Assembly (NCBI GenBank): GCA_947463785.1
Contig: CANHRG010000002.1
Coordinates: forward strand, 62,001 to 126,000
Length of the DNA: 64,000 nt
Direction: 5' to 3'
DNA from: Sphingobacteriaceae bacterium
GTDB taxonomy: Bacteria; Bacteroidota; Bacteroidia; Sphingobacteriales; Sphingobacteriaceae
The stretch's first letter is position 1. Each line of letters starts with the position of its first letter. The position numbers were made by a program, and so were the translations under genes. Positions 4,058-21,273 of the stretch are shown in pieces. A model generated the notes under the pieces. The model made no database searches. It had not been told where the DNA came from and worked only from the letters and a program-made list of their open reading frames with translations.

Positions 4058-4176
4058 CGGTTTAGCTTTGAGTTATCCAGAATCCAATCTGAGCATTGCC
4101 AATTGATTATGCAATCAAAATCTGACTGAAGGTAGATTTTCGGGGATGAGAGTAATGATTTTATGGGTGGATTGAA

Positions 4177-5004
4177 CTAGTGACGGAAGCTCATCCAAAA
4201 AACCCGTAAGGCAACAATCCCAAGTGCAACTGCAAGTGCCCGAATAATCACTACAGCTTTGAGCTTGTGTGATAGTGTTGCCCCTAATTGAGCCCCTACA
4301 ACCACGCCAATGCCTAAAAAAAGAATTTCACTTAATACGGCATTTATATCTCCTTTTACCCAATGCGTAGCACTTGCACTGGCACCCATCAGGGCTAATA
4401 CAAAATGAGAAGTTGCTGTAGCTATATGAACGGGAAAATTCAATAGATTGATCATCACCGGTACGTGTATAATTCCACCTCCAATGCCTAAAATACTAGC
4501 GGCAATACCAATGATAAAACTAAGCAAACAAGCCAGAACCAAATCGTAAGCATACGAATAGGCATTGCCTTGCTGATCTTGGAGGGAACGTCGAATTGGC
4601 CAAATATTCCAAGTGAGGTTGTTGGAGTGGTGACTTTCTGTTTTAAGAGGTTTGATCAACAAATAAATGCAGAGCCCTAATAAGGTGATCCCGAATATCA
4701 AGTCAAAAACATTCCTGGGAATATAGCCCACCAATACCGAACCCAGAATAGATCCCGGTAGGGTAGTAGTTGAAAATAATAGTGCTGAGCGGTAGTCTAT
4801 TCGTTTTTTAAAAGCGTAATTCACAGATCCTGAAATCGCATTTATACAAACGACTGCTAAGGATATGGAAGTAATCAGTTCCGGACTTTTATCCGGATAT
4901 ACCATCAAGAGTATTGGTACGAGAATAAATCCTCCTCCAGCTCCGATTAGCGTTCCGATGGTTCCTGCTACAAAACCGATAAGAATTAAGTAGAAATTTA
5001 GCAT
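4177..5004 (-). CDS. TauE/SafE-family membrane exporter
   Basis: Integral membrane protein of 275 aa with about eight hydrophobic segments in two similar halves. Each half carries the glycine-rich family repeat: GTIGTLIGAGGGFILVP near the N-terminus and GIAASILGIGGGIIHVP in the middle. Family members are proposed to move sulfite, sulfoacetate or other organosulfur anions across the inner membrane; the substrate here cannot be inferred. It appears monocistronic and is divergent from the small-RNA candidate at 5,254. Confidence 0.85.
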   Translation of the reverse strand: MLNFYLILIGFVAGTIGTLIGAGGGFILVPILLMVYPDKSPELITSISLAVVCINAISGSVNYAFKKRIDYRSALLFSTTTLPGSILGSVLVGYIPRNVFDLIFGITLLGLCIYLLIKPLKTESHHSNNLTWNIWPIRRSLQDQQGNAYSYAYDLVLACLLSFIIGIAASILGIGGGIIHVPVMINLLNFPVHIATATSHFVLALMGASASATHWVKGDINAVLSEILFLGIGVVVGAQLGATLSHKLKAVVIIRALAVALGIVALRVFWMSFRH

Positions 5005-13988: not shown

Positions 13989-15080
13989 ATGAAAAAATTA
14001 CTTTACATCAGCCTTGCACTTATCTTATCAGCCTGCGGATCTAATTCATCCGACAAGGCTACTGAATTAGCCAAATTAAAAAAGGAAAGAGCAGCTCTAG
14101 ATCAGCAAATTGCCAAGTTAGAAACCGAAATTGGTGCTAAAAATGCAGTAGCCAATACTAAAAATGTGAATGGTGTTGAGTTGAAGGAGGAAGTGTTCCA
14201 GAATTATCTGGAAATTCAGGGTAAAATAGATGCGGATCAAAATGTTCAGGTTAGTCCGGAGGCACAAGGAATTGTAACCGCTGTTTTGGTTAAAGCCGGG
14301 CAGAATGTACAAAAAGGACAAACTATTGCCCAAATCGATGATCAAATTTTACGTGAAAGCATTTCTGAATTGCAAACTCAGTTAGAGTTGGCCAACACCG
14401 TTTTTCAACGTCAGAAAAATTTGTGGGATCAGAAAATCGGAACCGAAATACAATACCTGAATGCCAAAACGCAAAGAGATGCACTAACCCGCCGTATGGC
14501 CGCATTAAAATCACAAGCAGCTTTATACCGCATTAAAGCGCCTATCAGCGGAACCGTTGATCAACTAGATATTAAAGTCGGTCAGGCTGTAATGCCGGGT
14601 ATGCCGGGCATTCGGGTGGTAAACTCTTCCAATTTAAAAGTCAAAGCCCTGGTTGCAGAATCTTATTCAGGAAAAGTAAATCAAGGGGATGAGGTATTGG
14701 TCATTCTGCCAGACTTACAGGATACGCTAAAATCGCGTTTGTCTTTTGCCTCTAAAACTATCGATGCTAGCTCTAGAAGTTTTGGCGTGGAAGTTAAGTT
14801 GCCAACTAACAAAACCTACCGCCAGAACATGGTGGCCGTATTGAAAATTGTGGATTATGAGAATAAAAATGCCATTACTGTTCCGGTTAATGCAATCCAA
14901 AAATCTGAAAGAGGAGATTACGTGTACATTTCGGTTCAAAATAAGGCTAAAAGAACTCTGGTAAAACCAGGAAAGACTTCTGGAGGAAAAACGGAAATTC
15001 TTAGTGGATTAAAAGCTGGAGATAAATTAATTACAACCGGATTAGCCGAGTTAAACGACGGTGTTTTAGTTAAATTTTAA
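13989..15080 (+). CDS. RND efflux periplasmic adaptor (membrane fusion lipoprotein)
   Basis: Links the inner-membrane pump to the TolC-type channel. The N-terminus is a lipoprotein signal with lipobox LSAC (Cys16), so the protein is lipid-anchored. A coiled coil begins directly after it (residues 25-50). A biotinyl-lipoyl half-motif (GIVTAVLVKAGQNVQKGQTIAQID), a second helical hairpin, the other half (YRIKAPISGTVDQLDIKVGQAV) and beta-barrel domains follow. This is the HlyD/AcrA order. Length 363 aa is normal. Confidence 0.92.
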   Translation: MKKLLYISLALILSACGSNSSDKATELAKLKKERAALDQQIAKLETEIGAKNAVANTKNVNGVELKEEVFQNYLEIQGKIDADQNVQVSPEAQGIVTAVLVKAGQNVQKGQTIAQIDDQILRESISELQTQLELANTVFQRQKNLWDQKIGTEIQYLNAKTQRDALTRRMAALKSQAALYRIKAPISGTVDQLDIKVGQAVMPGMPGIRVVNSSNLKVKALVAESYSGKVNQGDEVLVILPDLQDTLKSRLSFASKTIDASSRSFGVEVKLPTNKTYRQNMVAVLKIVDYENKNAITVPVNAIQKSERGDYVYISVQNKAKRTLVKPGKTSGGKTEILSGLKAGDKLITTGLAELNDGVLVKF

Positions 15081-15099
15081 TGATTAGCTAAGCAAACAG

Positions 15100-18000
15100 A
15101 TGAAAGATATTAACAAAGAATTTAAGCCATCAAGCTGGTCTATAGATAATAAAACGGCCATTTATGTGCTCACCTTTATTTTGGTGATCATGGGCTATTC
15201 GGCATATCAAAACTTGCCTAAAGAGAATTTTCCGGAGGTTATTATTCCTAAAATTTTCGTTCAAACCATATATCCGGGTACGTCTCCAGAGAATATGGAG
15301 AACTTGGTGACCAAGCAGTTGGAAAAACAGCTAAAATCAACGCCTGGGCTTAAAAAAATCACTTCAAACTCTTACCAGGATGTTTCGGTAATCACGGCAG
15401 AATTTAATACCAATGTGGATATTAAGGATGCCAAACAACGGGTTAAGGATGCTGTGGATAAGGCTCGTCAGGATTTGCCAAACGATTTGCCAAAAGATCC
15501 TAATGTAATGGATATCAATTTGGCAGACTTGCCAATTATGTATGTAAATCTTTCTGGCGATTACGATCTGAAAAAGTTGAAAGAATACGCTGAAAGCTTA
15601 AAAGACCAGATCGAAGCCTTAAAAGAGATTTCAGGAGTGGATATTGTTGGTGCGCTTGACCCTGAAATTCAAATCAATGCCGATTTGAATAAAATGGCAG
15701 CAGCTCAGGTGTCTTTTCGTGACATCGAGTCTTCCGTGGGTTATGAAAATTTAACCATCTCTGGAGGAACCGTTAAAATGGATGGCATGCGCCGGACGCT
15801 TAACGTAAAGAAAGAATTCAAAAGTGCCGATGAAATAGCCAACCTTATTATCAAAACACCAAGTGGAGCTTCGGTTTATTTAAAAGATATTGCAGAAGTA
15901 AAGGATGCATTCAAAGAGCAGGAAAGTTATGCCCGTTTGTACGGTAAAAACGTAATTACCCTTAATGTTAAAAAACGTAGTGGTGAAAACCTGATCGAGG
16001 CTTCTGATAAAATCAATAGCCTGATTGCAGATATGCAGAAAAACAGTTTGCCTAAAAATCTCAACATCACCATTACCGGAGATCAGTCAGACCAAACACG
16101 AGTTACACTGCACGATTTGATCAATACCATCATTATTGGATTCGTATTGGTGACCTTAATTCTGATGTTTTTCATGGGCGTAACGAATGCACTTTTCGTA
16201 GCGGCTTCGGTTCCACTTTCCATGTTTGTGGCCTTCTTGGCCATGCCTGCTTTAGGCGGAGCTTTAGGTTTTAGCTTTACCATGAACATGATTGTATTGT
16301 TCTCCTTCCTGCTAGGTTTGGGTATTGTGGTAGATGATGCGATTGTAGTGATTGAAAATACCCACCGTATTTTTGATAATGGCAAAGTGCCTATTGTAAA
16401 GGCGGCGAAAATGGCAGCTGGAGAAGTTTTCTTACCGGTGCTTTCCGGAACCCTAACTACACTTGCACCATTCGTGCCTTTGTTGTTTTGGCCGGGAGTA
16501 ATTGGTGAGTTCATGTTCTTTTTACCAGTTACCCTCATCATTACATTATTGGCTTCCTTATTGGTAGCCTACATCATCAACCCGGTTTTTGCGGTTGATT
16601 TTATGAAACCACACGAAGAAGATCATCAACCTACTTTCGATCAGAAAGTTAAACGCACACTTTATGTATTCGCTGGTTTAGCAGTATTATCTTATCTGTG
16701 GAGTTTTGGCTTGGGTAATTTTGTAGTTTTTCTGGCACTGCTTTATCTGTTAAATCACTTTTACTTAACGAAAGCCGTAAGCAATTTTCAACAAAATACC
16801 TGGCCTCGTTTCCAAGAGAAATACGTTAAGTTATTGGAATGGGCAGTAGAACGTCCAAAGAAGATGCTTTTGGGAACAGTTGGGTTATTAGTTTTCTCCA
16901 TCGTTTTGATGGGGATAATTCCTCCAAAAATCGTATTCTTCCCAACCAGCGATCCCAATTTTGTGTATGTATATGTAAATATGCCGGTTGGAACGGATCA
17001 GGCCTATACCAATGAAGTGGTTAAAGATGTAGAGGGGCGGGTAACCAAAGTGGTTGGTAAAGATAATCCGATTGTTTCTTCCATCATTTCCAACGTTACT
17101 GTTGGTGTTACAGATCCACAAGATGAAGATCAGGGGAATTACCCTAACCGCGGAAAGGTGACCGTAGCATTTGTAGAATTCGGAAAACGCGATGGAGAAA
17201 GTACATCCATTTACTTGGATAAAATTCGCGACTCTGTTAAGGGTATTCCGGGTGCAGAAATAACAGTTGCACAGGAAAAAAACGGCCCACCAACTGCTAA
17301 GCCAATTTCAATTGAAATAACTGGAGATGATCTAGATAAATTGGTTGCAACTTCCGAGCAACTTAAGAAATATCTAGATGCCAAGCAGATTGCCGGGGTT
17401 GAGGAGTTGAAATCAGACTTCCAAAACAATAAGCCTGAAATTATTTTTGACATTGATCGTGAGCGTGCTAACCGTGAAGGAATATCAAGCGGACAAATTG
17501 GTATGGATCTGCGTACCGCTATTTACGGTAAAGAAGTTTCTAAATTCCGCGATCTGAACGACGATTATCCCATAAATCTTCGTTCAAGGGAAGAACAACG
17601 CAATAATCTGGATGCGCTTAGAAACATGAAGGTTACCTATCGTGATATGGCCATGGGAGGGATGATTCGCCAGGTTCCATTGGCTTCTTTTGCCAATGTA
17701 GAATACGTAAATACCTATGGTAGCGTTAAGCGTAAGCAGCAAAAACGTATCATTATTCTTTCTTCAAATGTATTGGGCGATTACAATCCGAATGAAGTTG
17801 TGGCTGCAGTACAAGAGGAATTGAATCAGTTTAATGGCCCCGACGGAGTAGACATTAGAATGGCTGGTGAGCAAGAAGAGCAGAAAGAAACAGCTGCATT
17901 TTTAGGAAGTGCCTTATTGATCTCTCTAGGTTTAATCTTGATCATTTTGGTTGCACAGTTTAACTCCATTTCGAAACCAATCATCATTCTATCCGAAATC

Positions 18001-18465
18001 TTGTTCAGTATTATCGGGGTATTCTTGGGTATTACCATATTCCGTATGGATATGTCCATCGTAATGTCGGGTATTGGAATTGTTGCTTTAGCCGGTATTG
18101 TGGTTCGTAATGGTATTTTACTGGTTGAATTTACAGACTTGTTGATCGAGCAGGGCATGCCGGTGAAAGAAGCTGTAATTGAGGCTGGACGTACCCGTAT
18201 GACTCCGGTTTTACTAACCGCTACGGCTACTATGTTAGGTTTAATTCCTCTGGCTGTAGGCTTAAATATTGACTTTGAACTCTTGTTCTCCGAATTTAAT
18301 CCGCATATCTATTTTGGGGGAGATAATGTTGCCTTCTGGGGCCCACTATCTTGGACCATGATTTTCGGATTGAGCTTTGCCACATTCCTAACTTTGGTGT
18401 TGGTACCTTGTATGTATTTGCTCTCAGCAAAAGGATCCGAAAAGCTGAAAAAGGTATTCAACTAA
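15100..18465 (+). CDS. RND-family efflux pump (AcrB/HAE1-type permease)
   Basis: Proton-driven inner-membrane pump of 1121 aa. Twelve or more membrane segments flank two large periplasmic loops. The TM4 motif GLGIVVDDAIVVIENTHR carries the paired Asp residues of the proton relay seen in AcrB. It is somewhat longer than AcrB because of an extra hydrophobic stretch around residues 515-555 and an insertion near the C-terminus (FELLFSEFNPHIYFGG). Substrate class cannot be read from sequence; the Asp pair points to organic compounds rather than metals. Confidence 0.92.
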   Translation: MKDINKEFKPSSWSIDNKTAIYVLTFILVIMGYSAYQNLPKENFPEVIIPKIFVQTIYPGTSPENMENLVTKQLEKQLKSTPGLKKITSNSYQDVSVITAEFNTNVDIKDAKQRVKDAVDKARQDLPNDLPKDPNVMDINLADLPIMYVNLSGDYDLKKLKEYAESLKDQIEALKEISGVDIVGALDPEIQINADLNKMAAAQVSFRDIESSVGYENLTISGGTVKMDGMRRTLNVKKEFKSADEIANLIIKTPSGASVYLKDIAEVKDAFKEQESYARLYGKNVITLNVKKRSGENLIEASDKINSLIADMQKNSLPKNLNITITGDQSDQTRVTLHDLINTIIIGFVLVTLILMFFMGVTNALFVAASVPLSMFVAFLAMPALGGALGFSFTMNMIVLFSFLLGLGIVVDDAIVVIENTHRIFDNGKVPIVKAAKMAAGEVFLPVLSGTLTTLAPFVPLLFWPGVIGEFMFFLPVTLIITLLASLLVAYIINPVFAVDFMKPHEEDHQPTFDQKVKRTLYVFAGLAVLSYLWSFGLGNFVVFLALLYLLNHFYLTKAVSNFQQNTWPRFQEKYVKLLEWAVERPKKMLLGTVGLLVFSIVLMGIIPPKIVFFPTSDPNFVYVYVNMPVGTDQAYTNEVVKDVEGRVTKVVGKDNPIVSSIISNVTVGVTDPQDEDQGNYPNRGKVTVAFVEFGKRDGESTSIYLDKIRDSVKGIPGAEITVAQEKNGPPTAKPISIEITGDDLDKLVATSEQLKKYLDAKQIAGVEELKSDFQNNKPEIIFDIDRERANREGISSGQIGMDLRTAIYGKEVSKFRDLNDDYPINLRSREEQRNNLDALRNMKVTYRDMAMGGMIRQVPLASFANVEYVNTYGSVKRKQQKRIIILSSNVLGDYNPNEVVAAVQEELNQFNGPDGVDIRMAGEQEEQKETAAFLGSALLISLGLILIILVAQFNSISKPIIILSEILFSIIGVFLGITIFRMDMSIVMSGIGIVALAGIVVRNGILLVEFTDLLIEQGMPVKEAVIEAGRTRMTPVLLTATATMLGLIPLAVGLNIDFELLFSEFNPHIYFGGDNVAFWGPLSWTMIFGLSFATFLTLVLVPCMYLLSAKGSEKLKKVFN

Positions 18466-18568: not shown

Positions 18569-18757
18569 TTACTTAGTAGCAGCTGAATCAGCAGCAGCTG
18601 AATCAGTAGCAGTAGAATCAGCAGCAGTTGTATCAACAGCAGCAGAATCAACAGCAGTTGAATCTGTAGCAGCTTCTTCAGTTTTGTTAGAAGAGCAGGC
18701 AGCAACTGACAAAGAGATAGCTAAAGCTAAGAAACCGAATTTGAATAAATTTTTCAT
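18569..18757 (-). CDS. Small lipoprotein with six five-residue repeats
   Basis: A 62-residue protein: signal peptide with lipobox VAAC (Cys21), a short linker, then an Ala/Ser/Thr/Asp-rich tail. The tail repeats in a strict five-residue register with Asp at every fifth position (residues 32, 37, 42, 47, 52, 57). The opposite-phase frame on the same DNA gives an improbable Leu/Ile/Gln string and is rejected. It has its own promoter box and terminator. It probably forms a flexible acidic tail on the membrane surface; function unknown. It is divergent from the ECF sigma gene. Confidence 0.8.
   Translation of the reverse strand: MKNLFKFGFLALAISLSVAACSSNKTEEAATDSTAVDSAAVDTTAADSTATDSAAADSAATK
18581..18670 (-). 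repeat. Tandem 15-bp repeats inside the small lipoprotein gene
   Basis: Six imperfect 15-base units encode six copies of a pentapeptide of the form A-(T/V/A)-D-(S/T)-(T/A). The unit length is a multiple of three, so unit gain or loss would keep the frame. Confidence 0.85.
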
Positions 18758-18812
18758 GTTCTGTTTTGTAAAGGGTTAATTAATAATTATTAATAATTTG
18801 TTGTTAATACTG

Positions 18813-18820
18813 CAAAAGTA
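18813..18820 (-). promoter_or_regulatory. -7 box of the small lipoprotein gene
   Basis: Reads TACTTTTG on the minus strand, 55 bases before the ATG at 18757. The leader between them is almost pure A+T. No clear -33 TTG. Confidence 0.5.
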
Positions 18821-18904
18821 AAAAGGTAACCCGTAAATCCTGAAAAAAATTAAAAAAATATTTTCCTATCATTGGGTTACTATTCCCTTAAAAGCGTATT
18901 AAGA

Positions 18905-19477
18905 TTGAAAGATAAGATAAATAGTTCAATTCCAGCCGATAATGAAATCATTCTTGGTATTCGGAATGGATCTAAAACTAGTTTAGACCGACTGTACCGT
19001 GCTTATTTTCCGATGATCCTTCAACTAGTGATCAGCAACAACGGAAATGAGGATGATGCAAAGGATATTTTTCAAGAATCGGTTATTGTTCTTTACAATA
19101 AGGTTAAGGCTGGTGATTTTGAGCTGAATAGTAAACTAAAAACCTATATCTACGCAGTTTGTCGGCGATTGTGGTTAAAAAAGCTGAATCATCAAAGCAG
19201 GTTTACCAATACTGCTCATGTTTTTGAAGACATTGAAGAGGTGGAATTGGATGTGGAAGCACATGAAACACAAAACAGGCAATTTCAGCAAATGCGATCT
19301 GCCTTGAGTGAATTAGGTGAACCCTGCAAAACCATAATAGAAGAATTTTACCTACACAATAAATCGATGCAGGAGATCTGTGAGCAGTTTGGCTATACCA
19401 ATGCCGATAACGCGAAAACACAGAAATACAAATGCTTACAACGACTTAAAAAACTGTTTTTTAAGTCTGAAAATTAG
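18905..19477 (+). CDS. ECF-type sigma-70 family RNA polymerase sigma factor
   Basis: Contains region 2 (SLDRLYRAYFPMILQLVISN, then EDDAKDIFQESVIVLYNKV) and region 4 with a helix-turn-helix (EEFYLHNKSMQEICEQFGYTNADNAKTQKYKCLQRLKKLF). Regions 1 and 3 are absent, as in ECF sigmas. The start is uncertain: TTG 18905 gives 190 aa with a family-like N-terminus, while TTG 18872 would add 11 residues. No ATG is available. It is followed after three bases by a membrane protein that may be its regulator. Confidence 0.85.
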   Translation: MKDKINSSIPADNEIILGIRNGSKTSLDRLYRAYFPMILQLVISNNGNEDDAKDIFQESVIVLYNKVKAGDFELNSKLKTYIYAVCRRLWLKKLNHQSRFTNTAHVFEDIEEVELDVEAHETQNRQFQQMRSALSELGEPCKTIIEEFYLHNKSMQEICEQFGYTNADNAKTQKYKCLQRLKKLFFKSEN

Positions 19478-19480
19478 AAT

Positions 19481-20563
19481 ATGAAAAATTTAGAGTTGAT
19501 TAACCAGATTGAAGCTTACATCCGTGGCGAATTGAGCCAAGAGGAGCGTGTTGCTTTCGAGAAACTGCGTTGTGAGGATGCCGCGGTTGATCAGTTGGTT
19601 GTTGAACACCAAGAATGGATGAATTTAATGGCCGCGTATGGTGAGCGTCAGCGCTTGCAACATGCCATGGACCTCATTCACGAACAAATTGATGTGCATG
19701 CCTTGAAAAATGAATTGATGCCTGCGTCGGTGAAGGTATTTCAACTTTGGAAAAAAGTACGTTTACAGGTCGCTGTTGCTGCTTCTGTAGCTATTATTGC
19801 GGTTCTAAGCACATTGATCTTCTCTGGTCATTTGGCTGAAAATTTAACTGGTTACAGTGCATTGCGTCGTGAAATCAATAACATCAAACGTTCACAAAGT
19901 GATTTGGCCAAAAACATCACCAAGAAATCAAAAGGACCGGTTAACCCTGGCGAATTTGGTGGAACTGCCTTTGCGCTTTCGTCTAATGGTTATATGGTTA
20001 CCAATTACCACGTGATTAAAGATGCAGATTCTCTGTACATTCAAAATGCCTCAGGCGATTCGTACAAAGTGAAAACGGTTTATGTTGAACCGGAGTACGA
20101 TATTGCAGTTCTTCAAATTGTAGACCCCGAATTCGTTTCTTTAGGCAAGCTACCTTATACATTCAAAAAATCCACTTCAGATTTAGGGGAAGATGTATTT
20201 ACCTTGGGCTACCCCAGAGATGAGCCAGTTTACGGTAAGGGCTATTTGAGTTCTCGTACCGGATTTGATGGCGATACGGTTGCCTATCAGGTTTCTATTC
20301 CGGTAAACCCTGGAAACAGTGGTGGTCCATTATTAGATAATAAAGGCAATGTGATTGGTATCATTAGTGGTAAACAAACCCGTACAGATGGTGCTGCTTT
20401 TGCAGTTAAATCGAATTACTTGTTACAAACCTTGAAAGAAATTCCACAAAAAGAGTTGGAGCGTGATTTAGCCATCAATAAGAAAAATACCTTAGCCAAG
20501 CTTAACCGTACCGAGCAAATCAAGAAAATGCAGGATTACGTGTTTATGGTTAGAGTTTATTAA
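19481..20563 (+). CDS. Membrane-anchored trypsin-like serine protease with an anti-sigma-like N-terminus
   Basis: 360 aa. Residues 1-90 are cytoplasmic, acidic and helical, beginning ELINQIEAYIRGELSQEE, like the N-terminus of Bacteroidota anti-sigma factors. One membrane segment spans about 96-115. The periplasmic part is a trypsin-like S1C domain with catalytic triad H177 (TNYHVIK), D207 (YDIAVLQ) and S280 (PGNSGGPL). No PDZ domain follows. It starts three bases after the ECF sigma gene, so the pair is almost certainly co-translated. That it binds the sigma factor is inference from position and N-terminal appearance. Confidence 0.85.
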   Translation: MKNLELINQIEAYIRGELSQEERVAFEKLRCEDAAVDQLVVEHQEWMNLMAAYGERQRLQHAMDLIHEQIDVHALKNELMPASVKVFQLWKKVRLQVAVAASVAIIAVLSTLIFSGHLAENLTGYSALRREINNIKRSQSDLAKNITKKSKGPVNPGEFGGTAFALSSNGYMVTNYHVIKDADSLYIQNASGDSYKVKTVYVEPEYDIAVLQIVDPEFVSLGKLPYTFKKSTSDLGEDVFTLGYPRDEPVYGKGYLSSRTGFDGDTVAYQVSIPVNPGNSGGPLLDNKGNVIGIISGKQTRTDGAAFAVKSNYLLQTLKEIPQKELERDLAINKKNTLAKLNRTEQIKKMQDYVFMVRVY

Positions 20564-20584
20564 TACTCTTGATTTTAAAATATC

Positions 20585-20613
20585 AAAGCCCATGATTAAT
20601 AATCATGGGCTTT
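20585..20613. terminator. Bidirectional terminator
   Basis: A perfect 13-bp stem (AAAGCCCATGATT with AATCATGGGCTTT) with loop AAT, between the convergent protease and pdxH genes. Confidence 0.9.
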
Positions 20614-20619
20614 GTTTGT

Positions 20620-21273
20620 TTATGGGGCCAATCTTACGATTTTCCAATTGGTTTTATCCGCCTTGCGGTACACGATTCTGTCGTGTAAACGGCTTGGGCG
20701 ACCCTGCCAAAATTCAATTACTTGTGGTTTTACTAAATAACCACCCCAATAGGATGGTTTGGGTATTTCCTGGTCTTTGTATTTTTCTTGTAAATCACTC
20801 AGGTTTTTCTCCAGCATTTCTCGCTTTTCAATAACCTGACTTTGAGGAGAAGCCAATGCACCAATCTGACTTTCTTTGGGACGAGAACTGAAGTATTTTT
20901 CAGATTCTTCTTTACTTACTTTTTCTATGGTGCCTTCTATCCGAACCTGGCGCTCCAATTCGGGCCAGAAGAATACCAAAGAAACCACTGGGTTTTTTGC
21001 TAATTCTCTTCCCTTACGACTTAAGTAGTTCGTGTAAAACACAAATCCATCCTGATTGAACCCTTTCAATAAAACAATACGTGCAGAAGGTTTGCCATCT
21101 GGACTTGCTGTAGCTAAAGTCATGGCATTGGGTTCATAAATGCCCGATTTTAGGGCTTCATCAAACCAATGGTCAAATTGTTCTATCGGGTTTGATTTTA
21201 CATCGTTTTCCGACAGTTGCTCTGCTCGGTACTCTTTACGAAGGTTTTCTAAGGTTTGGGGCTTTGTTTTCAT
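20620..21273 (-). CDS. pdxH: Pyridoxamine 5'-phosphate oxidase
   Basis: FMN-dependent oxidase making pyridoxal 5'-phosphate from pyridoxine or pyridoxamine phosphate. Visible family segments are PNAMTLATASPDGKPSARIVLLKGF (FMN site), FYTNYLSRKGRELAKNP, RIEGTIEKVSKEESEKYFSSRP, and the C-terminal WQGRPSRLHDRIVYR with the closing RLAP. Length 217 aa is standard. It is divergent from the YqgE-family gene with only about 75 bases between their starts. Confidence 0.95.
   Translation of the reverse strand: MKTKPQTLENLRKEYRAEQLSENDVKSNPIEQFDHWFDEALKSGIYEPNAMTLATASPDGKPSARIVLLKGFNQDGFVFYTNYLSRKGRELAKNPVVSLVFFWPELERQVRIEGTIEKVSKEESEKYFSSRPKESQIGALASPQSQVIEKREMLEKNLSDLQEKYKDQEIPKPSYWGGYLVKPQVIEFWQGRPSRLHDRIVYRKADKTNWKIVRLAP

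Follow-up and report, generated by a model that had tools for sequence, protein, structure and literature searches.

A conserved ECF sigma factor operon of Bacteroidia encodes a predicted anti-sigma factor fused to an HtrA-type protease

We report that a 64,000-nucleotide stretch of DNA from a Sphingobacteriaceae bacterium (hereafter the window) carries an ECF sigma factor gene followed by a gene in which an anti-sigma-like domain, a membrane helix and an HtrA-type serine protease domain are joined in one chain, and that this gene pair faces a small lipoprotein gene across two copies of one predicted promoter. On balance, we consider it probable that the fusion protein is an anti-sigma factor with a built-in site-1 protease, which would feed an RseP/ClpXP cascade with an autoregulated output. 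The domains, their topology, the operon, its conservation and the promoter pair can be read directly from the sequence, and the features on which the argument draws are the following (positions in the window):

18569 to 18757, minus strand: small lipoprotein gene (62 aa) with a signal peptide, lipobox Cys21 and an acidic D/S/T/A tail
18804 to 18832, minus strand: GGGTTAC-N15-GTATTAA, exact match, predicted promoter of the lipoprotein gene
18874 to 18902, plus strand: GGGTTAC-N15-GTATTAA, exact match, predicted autoregulated promoter of the sigma operon
18905 to 19477, plus strand: ECF sigma gene (190 aa, TTG start), recognised by profile matches
19481 to 20563, plus strand: anti-sigma/HtrA-type protease fusion gene (360 aa), beginning 3 bp past the sigma open reading frame
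19481 to 19726, plus strand: helical anti-sigma-like domain, residues 1-82, from profiles and models (pLDDT about 90 for residues 10-60)
19766 to 19825, plus strand: membrane helix, residues 96-115, N-in, from alignment, model and charge
19775 to 19786, plus strand: V99-A100-A101-S102 motif at the start of the membrane helix
19853 to 19921, plus strand: periplasmic amphipathic helix, residues 125-147, from the model, with a heptad-like core
19952 to 20458, plus strand: HtrA/DegS-fold serine protease domain, residues 158-326, from Pfam and structure comparison
20009 to 20011, plus strand: catalytic H177, invariant in the alignment
20099 to 20101, plus strand: catalytic D207, invariant in the alignment
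20318 to 20320, plus strand: catalytic S280, invariant in the alignment
20459 to 20560, plus strand: helix-strand extension at the C-terminus, residues 327-360, lying past the HtrA match and taking the place of a PDZ domain

The earlier note had proposed an ECF sigma factor coupled to an anti-sigma factor fused to a periplasmic trypsin-like protease; the coordinates it gave for both open reading frames were confirmed, and the identity of the sigma factor was borne out. The sigma open reading frame scored 80.7 bits against TIGR02937 (cut-off 42.9) and 29.9 bits against Sigma70_r2 (cut-off 24), and its sigma2 and sigma4 regions each matched sigmaE/AlgU/SigW-type structures. The TTG codon at 18905, which is likely to be the true sigma start, lies 2 nt past a -10-like element. 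The start codon (GTG, TTG or ATG) is often found 2-4 nt past such an element (window 18872-18910; upstream regions of loci L001-L111), and in most Sphingobacteriaceae only a few nucleotides separate the two, a closeness that suggests a near-leaderless mRNA for the sigma operon.

Relatives of the fusion come from Sphingobacteriaceae, Chitinophagaceae (named members of both families among them) and other Bacteroidia. When 100 related genomes were searched, a full-length fusion was found in nearly all family members and nine genomes were without it; across the class Bacteroidia, about 43 of 295 sampled genomes carry one. The earlier note had suggested looking for co-occurrence of the two genes in other Bacteroidota, and the sigma gene indeed lies directly upstream on the same strand in 88 of the 89 full-length copies, which represent 83 distinct sigma-fusion pairs, the single exception being a locus cut by a contig end. 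The gap between the two genes is mostly -8 to +31 nt across these loci. The order is conserved far beyond chance, and the two genes form a conserved operon. We also considered that read-through of the sigma stop codon (TAG-AAT-ATG, in frame) might yield a real sigma-fusion chain, and rejected this because the fusion is in frame with the sigma gene in 31 of about 90 loci, close to the third expected by chance, and the stop codons differ. At one locus (L065 4791-5592, Chitinophaga sp. E66), an intact sigma gene adjoins a fusion gene broken across two frames, possibly through a frameshift or a sequence error. Around the module, an RND-type efflux pair (a membrane fusion protein and a 1121-aa transporter; 13989-18465) lies upstream on the same strand, with the divergent lipoprotein gene sitting in between, and on the other side an inverted repeat, AAAGCCCATGATTAATAATCATGGGCTTT, at 20580-20615, between the fusion gene and a convergent gene (20620-21273), looks like a bidirectional terminator.

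We scanned the N-terminal segments of 41 members one by one against profiles, the earlier note having named anti-sigma and zinc-finger anti-sigma families as the ones to search. The NCBIfam anti-sigma family NF052375 matched 24 of the 41 segments (best E 4.8e-8), NF010501 ('putative anti-sigmaE') matched 12 and the anti-sigma family NF047528 four, and Pfam zf-HC2 matched 28 (best 3e-4) over profile positions 7-25 only. Since the window's own segment is weak alone (E about 0.003, under the curated cut-off), the anti-sigma case rests on the family. AlphaFold drew four N-terminal helices with good confidence. The N-terminal alignment has no conserved zinc ligands or cysteine (HxxxCxxC) of the kind that define zinc anti-sigma (ZAS) domains, a comparison of the N-terminal profile with PDB sequences gave chance matches only, and neither a FecR nor an STN domain was found in the fusion protein with Pfam and NCBIfam. 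Given the profile matches and the tie to a sigma gene in every intact locus, the prediction that the N-terminus is an anti-sigma domain, as the earlier note had read it, is well supported.

The sigma factor and the fusion protein were also modelled as one linked chain with AlphaFold, the sigma stop being read as Gly and 21 relatives being treated alike. The resulting model has a pTM of 0.71 and a mean pLDDT of 82 and comes without residue-pair confidence. Among its best Foldseek matches are the sigma chains of AlgU-MucA and sigmaE-RseA, and the match list barely probes the N-terminal domain, so that the absence of anti-sigma chains from it says nothing. The arrangement seen in sigmaE-RseA was not reproduced (rmsd about 12 Å over both sigma domains). 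Covariation between the sigma factor and the fusion weakly favours the anti-sigma domain, which takes part in 39 of the top 100 pairs and makes up 27% of the variable columns.

The mean net charge over 83 relatives is +3.5 on the N side of the membrane helix and +0.1 on its C side, which argues for an N-in helix and a periplasmic protease and agrees with the single helix at residues 96-115 described before. At its start, A100 and A101 are invariant in 83 of 83 relatives, mostly inside [V/I]AA[S/T], and are the only strictly invariant positions N-terminal of the protease domain (first 160 residues). The [V/I]AA[S/T] motif resembles the RseP site of E. coli RseA, at which cleavage between VAA and C leaves a ClpXP tag. 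Cleavage of RseA by RseP precedes degradation by ClpXP (PMC10202637), and ClpXP recognises XAA ends from the membrane helices of RsgI anti-sigma factors as tags in vitro (PMC12203970). At the level of the sequence motif alone, the fusion has the XAA of an RIP-type, RseA-like membrane helix, and the genome encodes one S2P (a Peptidase_M50 protein) and one ClpX. The invariant Ala-Ala together with this single S2P and ClpX makes self-cleavage of the fusion, which the earlier note had raised, plausible. The same genome has two further anti-sigma candidates with Ala-Ala close to where their membrane helix begins, so that the motif marks a proteolytic pathway generally and is no proof of self-cleavage; these different, single-membrane-helix candidates adjoin two other ECF genes (L075 2016-2453 and L079 768-1487). 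Between the membrane and the protease domain, the model has mostly low confidence over residues 120-157, though it draws a helix at 125-147, with a heptad-like core of L128, I132, I135, Q139, L142 and I146. This helix could serve as the stalk of an oligomer, HtrA domains being usually trimeric, and would be flanked on both sides by flexible stretches that can be cut.

In the protease domain, Trypsin_2 matches residues 161-294 with 88.7 bits (Pfam), the best solved relatives are DegP/MucD/HtrA, and the nearest folds are HtrA1 and DegS-deltaPDZ (Z about 20, rmsd 2.1-2.5 Å over residues 151-326). The triad H177/D207/S280 is invariant in 83 of 83 distinct relatives, which argues that the protease has been selected as an enzyme and is no decayed pseudoprotease. 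Pfam finds no PDZ domain, and the match to HtrA structures stops at residue 326 of 360. Both the S1C protease domain with an intact triad and the lack of a PDZ domain, as first described, are therefore upheld. The extension at residues 327-360 is conserved, with the consensus QDYVFMVKVY. Proteases of the same HtrA subtype that also carry this C-terminal tail occur in other Bacteroidia (loci L113-L126 and L062-L064); they differ from the fusion in that they mostly have a signal peptide, several of them apparently with repeat-rich N-terminal halves, and in that no sigma gene was recognised near their loci. Because proteases without an anti-sigma part have the same tail, the extension is probably not a special sensor, and it appears that an anti-sigma-plus-membrane-helix module was joined onto this protease subtype.

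The promoter pair and the divergent lipoprotein gene are new here, being absent from the first list of features, and make the module more specific. Exactly two exact copies of GGGTTAC-N15-GTATTAA occur in the 1.8-Mb genome, and they are the divergent pair; the genome holds no copy with one mismatch, and allowing up to two mismatches gives 12 copies in total (10 besides the exact pair) against 20 in a reversed control, which is no sign of a wider regulon. Among relatives, GGTTAC is kept in 87 of 88 distinct sigma upstream regions, at a spacing of 15 nt (75 regions) or 16 nt (12 regions) from a GTATTAA-type element, a layout that resembles that of sigmaE-type promoters. Exact sites are present in 49 of 51 genomes with the fusion and in none of the nine without it in the family sample (Fisher p 4e-9, an overstatement, as related genomes are not independent), and one of the two family exceptions, L029, has a 16-nt spacer. 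Class-wide, exact copies were found in 22 of 43 fusion genomes versus 4 of 252 others. One or two further exact sites occur in some genomes and share no function. At six loci (L040, L041, L043, L047, L049 and L053; ~4100-4200) a second GGTTAC-N15-GTATTAA precedes the sigma gene by ~240-330 nt on its strand and may be a second promoter or a relic of a lost lipoprotein gene.

The lipoprotein itself reads MKNLFKFGFLALAISLSVAAC, followed by the acidic D/S/T/A-rich tail, and scores 47.6 bits against NCBIfam NF050142 ('PG1828 family lipoprotein'), just below the cut-off of 50. This profile, which also picks up many low-complexity lipoproteins, matches 17 of 18 aligned members (best 1.8e-19). A divergent lipoprotein gene is present in 75 of the 84 loci with at least 800 nt of upstream DNA, and 53 of the 75 have the motif by a strict pattern. 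These related genes sit at the same position, and many have a GGGTTAC motif of their own, ~24-46 nt ahead of the ATG. Two or three lipoprotein genes stand in tandem at L007, L024, L031, L035, L061 and L089, most with their own GGTTAC promoter. Only two of 16 inspected loci with PG1828-like genes elsewhere in Bacteroidia adjoin this sigma gene, both with the fusion, so that the lipoprotein family is wider than the sigma module; in the inspected loci of fusion-free genomes, no such lipoprotein was found beside this sigma gene. In P. gingivalis, PG1827 (SigH) and PG1828 are neighbouring locus tags. Taken together, the promoter data support well the prediction of an autoregulated mini-regulon, with the sigma operon and the adjoining lipoprotein gene as its targets.

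From these features we infer how sigma binding, the signal, the cleavage steps and the lipoprotein might be connected. At rest, the N-terminal helices (residues 1-82) would keep the ECF sigma factor at the inner membrane. Envelope disturbance would activate the periplasmic HtrA-type domain, probably as an oligomer on helix 125-147, and the active domain would cut the flexible linker, either in its own chain (in cis) or in a neighbouring one (in trans). The site-2 protease RseP would then cut inside the membrane between V-A-A and S, exposing a C-terminal VAA end by which ClpXP would destroy the anti-sigma part. Free sigma would transcribe its own operon from GGGTTAC-N15-GTATTAA, amplifying the signal and renewing the anti-sigma factor, and would also transcribe the divergent lipoprotein gene, which probably provides the main output or a feedback ligand. 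The fuller version, in which a PDZ-free HtrA domain itself senses envelope damage and cuts its own linker in a closed loop whose outputs are the module itself and the lipoprotein, possibly a ligand or inhibitor of the protease, we hold as a possibility somewhat short of probable.

The protease could, however, act on other substrates. The fusion might consist of a normal anti-sigma factor and a stress-induced quality-control protease, and a different site-1 protease, such as the other HtrA-type protein of the genome, would then initiate sigma release. Such a second HtrA-type protease does exist (511 aa, at C1:292439), autoregulation would increase the level of the enzyme, and the relatives of the protease domain that lack an anti-sigma part evidently have other jobs. 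We nevertheless regard this as unlikely: an effector needs no fusion to an anti-sigma factor, yet the fusion adjoins the sigma gene in every intact locus. It is less likely still, and in our view rather improbable, that the target bound or cut by the protease domain is a different envelope protein, perhaps the lipoprotein, with the signal passing through helix and membrane segment as a conformational change that leaves the anti-sigma part uncut. The amphipathic helix 125-147 could pass on such a movement, and the S1C protease-like domain of RsgI9 from Clostridium thermocellum has been reported as polysaccharide-binding (PMC12203970); autocleavage, however, has been reported for RsgI9 itself (cited in PMC12203970), and the invariant triad and the invariant Ala-Ala of [V/I]AA[S/T] suit proteolysis better. 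Cleavage apart, the N-terminal domain might be no inhibitor at all and instead a positive partner of sigma (a pro-sigma or sigma chaperone, like some FecR). FecR-type regulators are common in Bacteroidota and can be needed for sigma activity, but none of the results obtained here argues for such a role. The profiles matched by the N-terminus are anti-sigma families, and with the lack of a FecR or STN domain in the fusion protein they make this reading very improbable. We thus favour the one-chain anti-sigma factor with its own site-1 protease.

In this module, one chain, conserved over several families of Bacteroidia, combines the predicted sensor-protease and anti-sigma factor; near the ECF genes of this phylum, class I anti-sigma domains have been reported as rare. 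Because only two promoters are predicted, the loop as a whole could be rebuilt in a laboratory strain, so that self-cleavage, PDZ-free HtrA activation and the role of one lipoprotein can be tested directly; the sigma factor and its near-exclusive promoter also make up a specific pair. The anti-sigma/HtrA fusion was undescribed in the literature searched, and an earlier description is possible.

The textbook sigmaE pathway uses two separate proteins as sensor-protease and anti-sigma factor. The RseA-DegS-RseP-ClpXP/sigmaE system of E. coli and the MucA-AlgW/AlgU system of Pseudomonas share with the window's module an ECF sigma factor, an N-in single-pass anti-sigma factor and an HtrA/DegS-type fold, as well as a VAA-type motif at the start of the membrane helix and a similar autoregulated promoter layout. 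In both, however, the anti-sigma factor and a protease with a PDZ sensor (DegS or AlgW) are separate, whereas the fusion is one chain with a C-terminal helix-strand and no PDZ domain, and the window's genome, unlike the sigmaE/AlgU systems, has only two exact promoter sites. With class I anti-sigma domains (ASDI, including the zinc-binding ZAS) the fusion shares an N-terminal helical domain, ECF adjacency and profile similarity, but it has no conserved zinc ligands as in ZAS; an ASDI neighbour was found at only 6% of Bacteroidetes ECFs in a survey (PMC7406223). The dual-membrane anti-sigma factor of Phocaeicola (M0N98_03760) and EcfO of Bacteroides fragilis, Bacteroidota systems linked to envelope stress (PMC9308784), likewise combine an ECF sigma factor with a following anti-sigma factor that has an unusual, large extracytoplasmic part, which there is a C-terminal outer-membrane beta-barrel and here a protease. 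RsgI9 (PDB 7sjy) likewise consists of an anti-sigma domain, a membrane helix and an extracytoplasmic S1C protease-like domain, but it is sigmaI-type and an orphan without an adjacent sigma gene, with an RsgI N-terminal domain and an NTF2-like domain; neither of these was found in the fusion by Pfam or NCBIfam, and only the S1C part matches 7sjy. RseA-DegS-RseP is thus the closest known system in logic and RsgI9 the closest in architecture.
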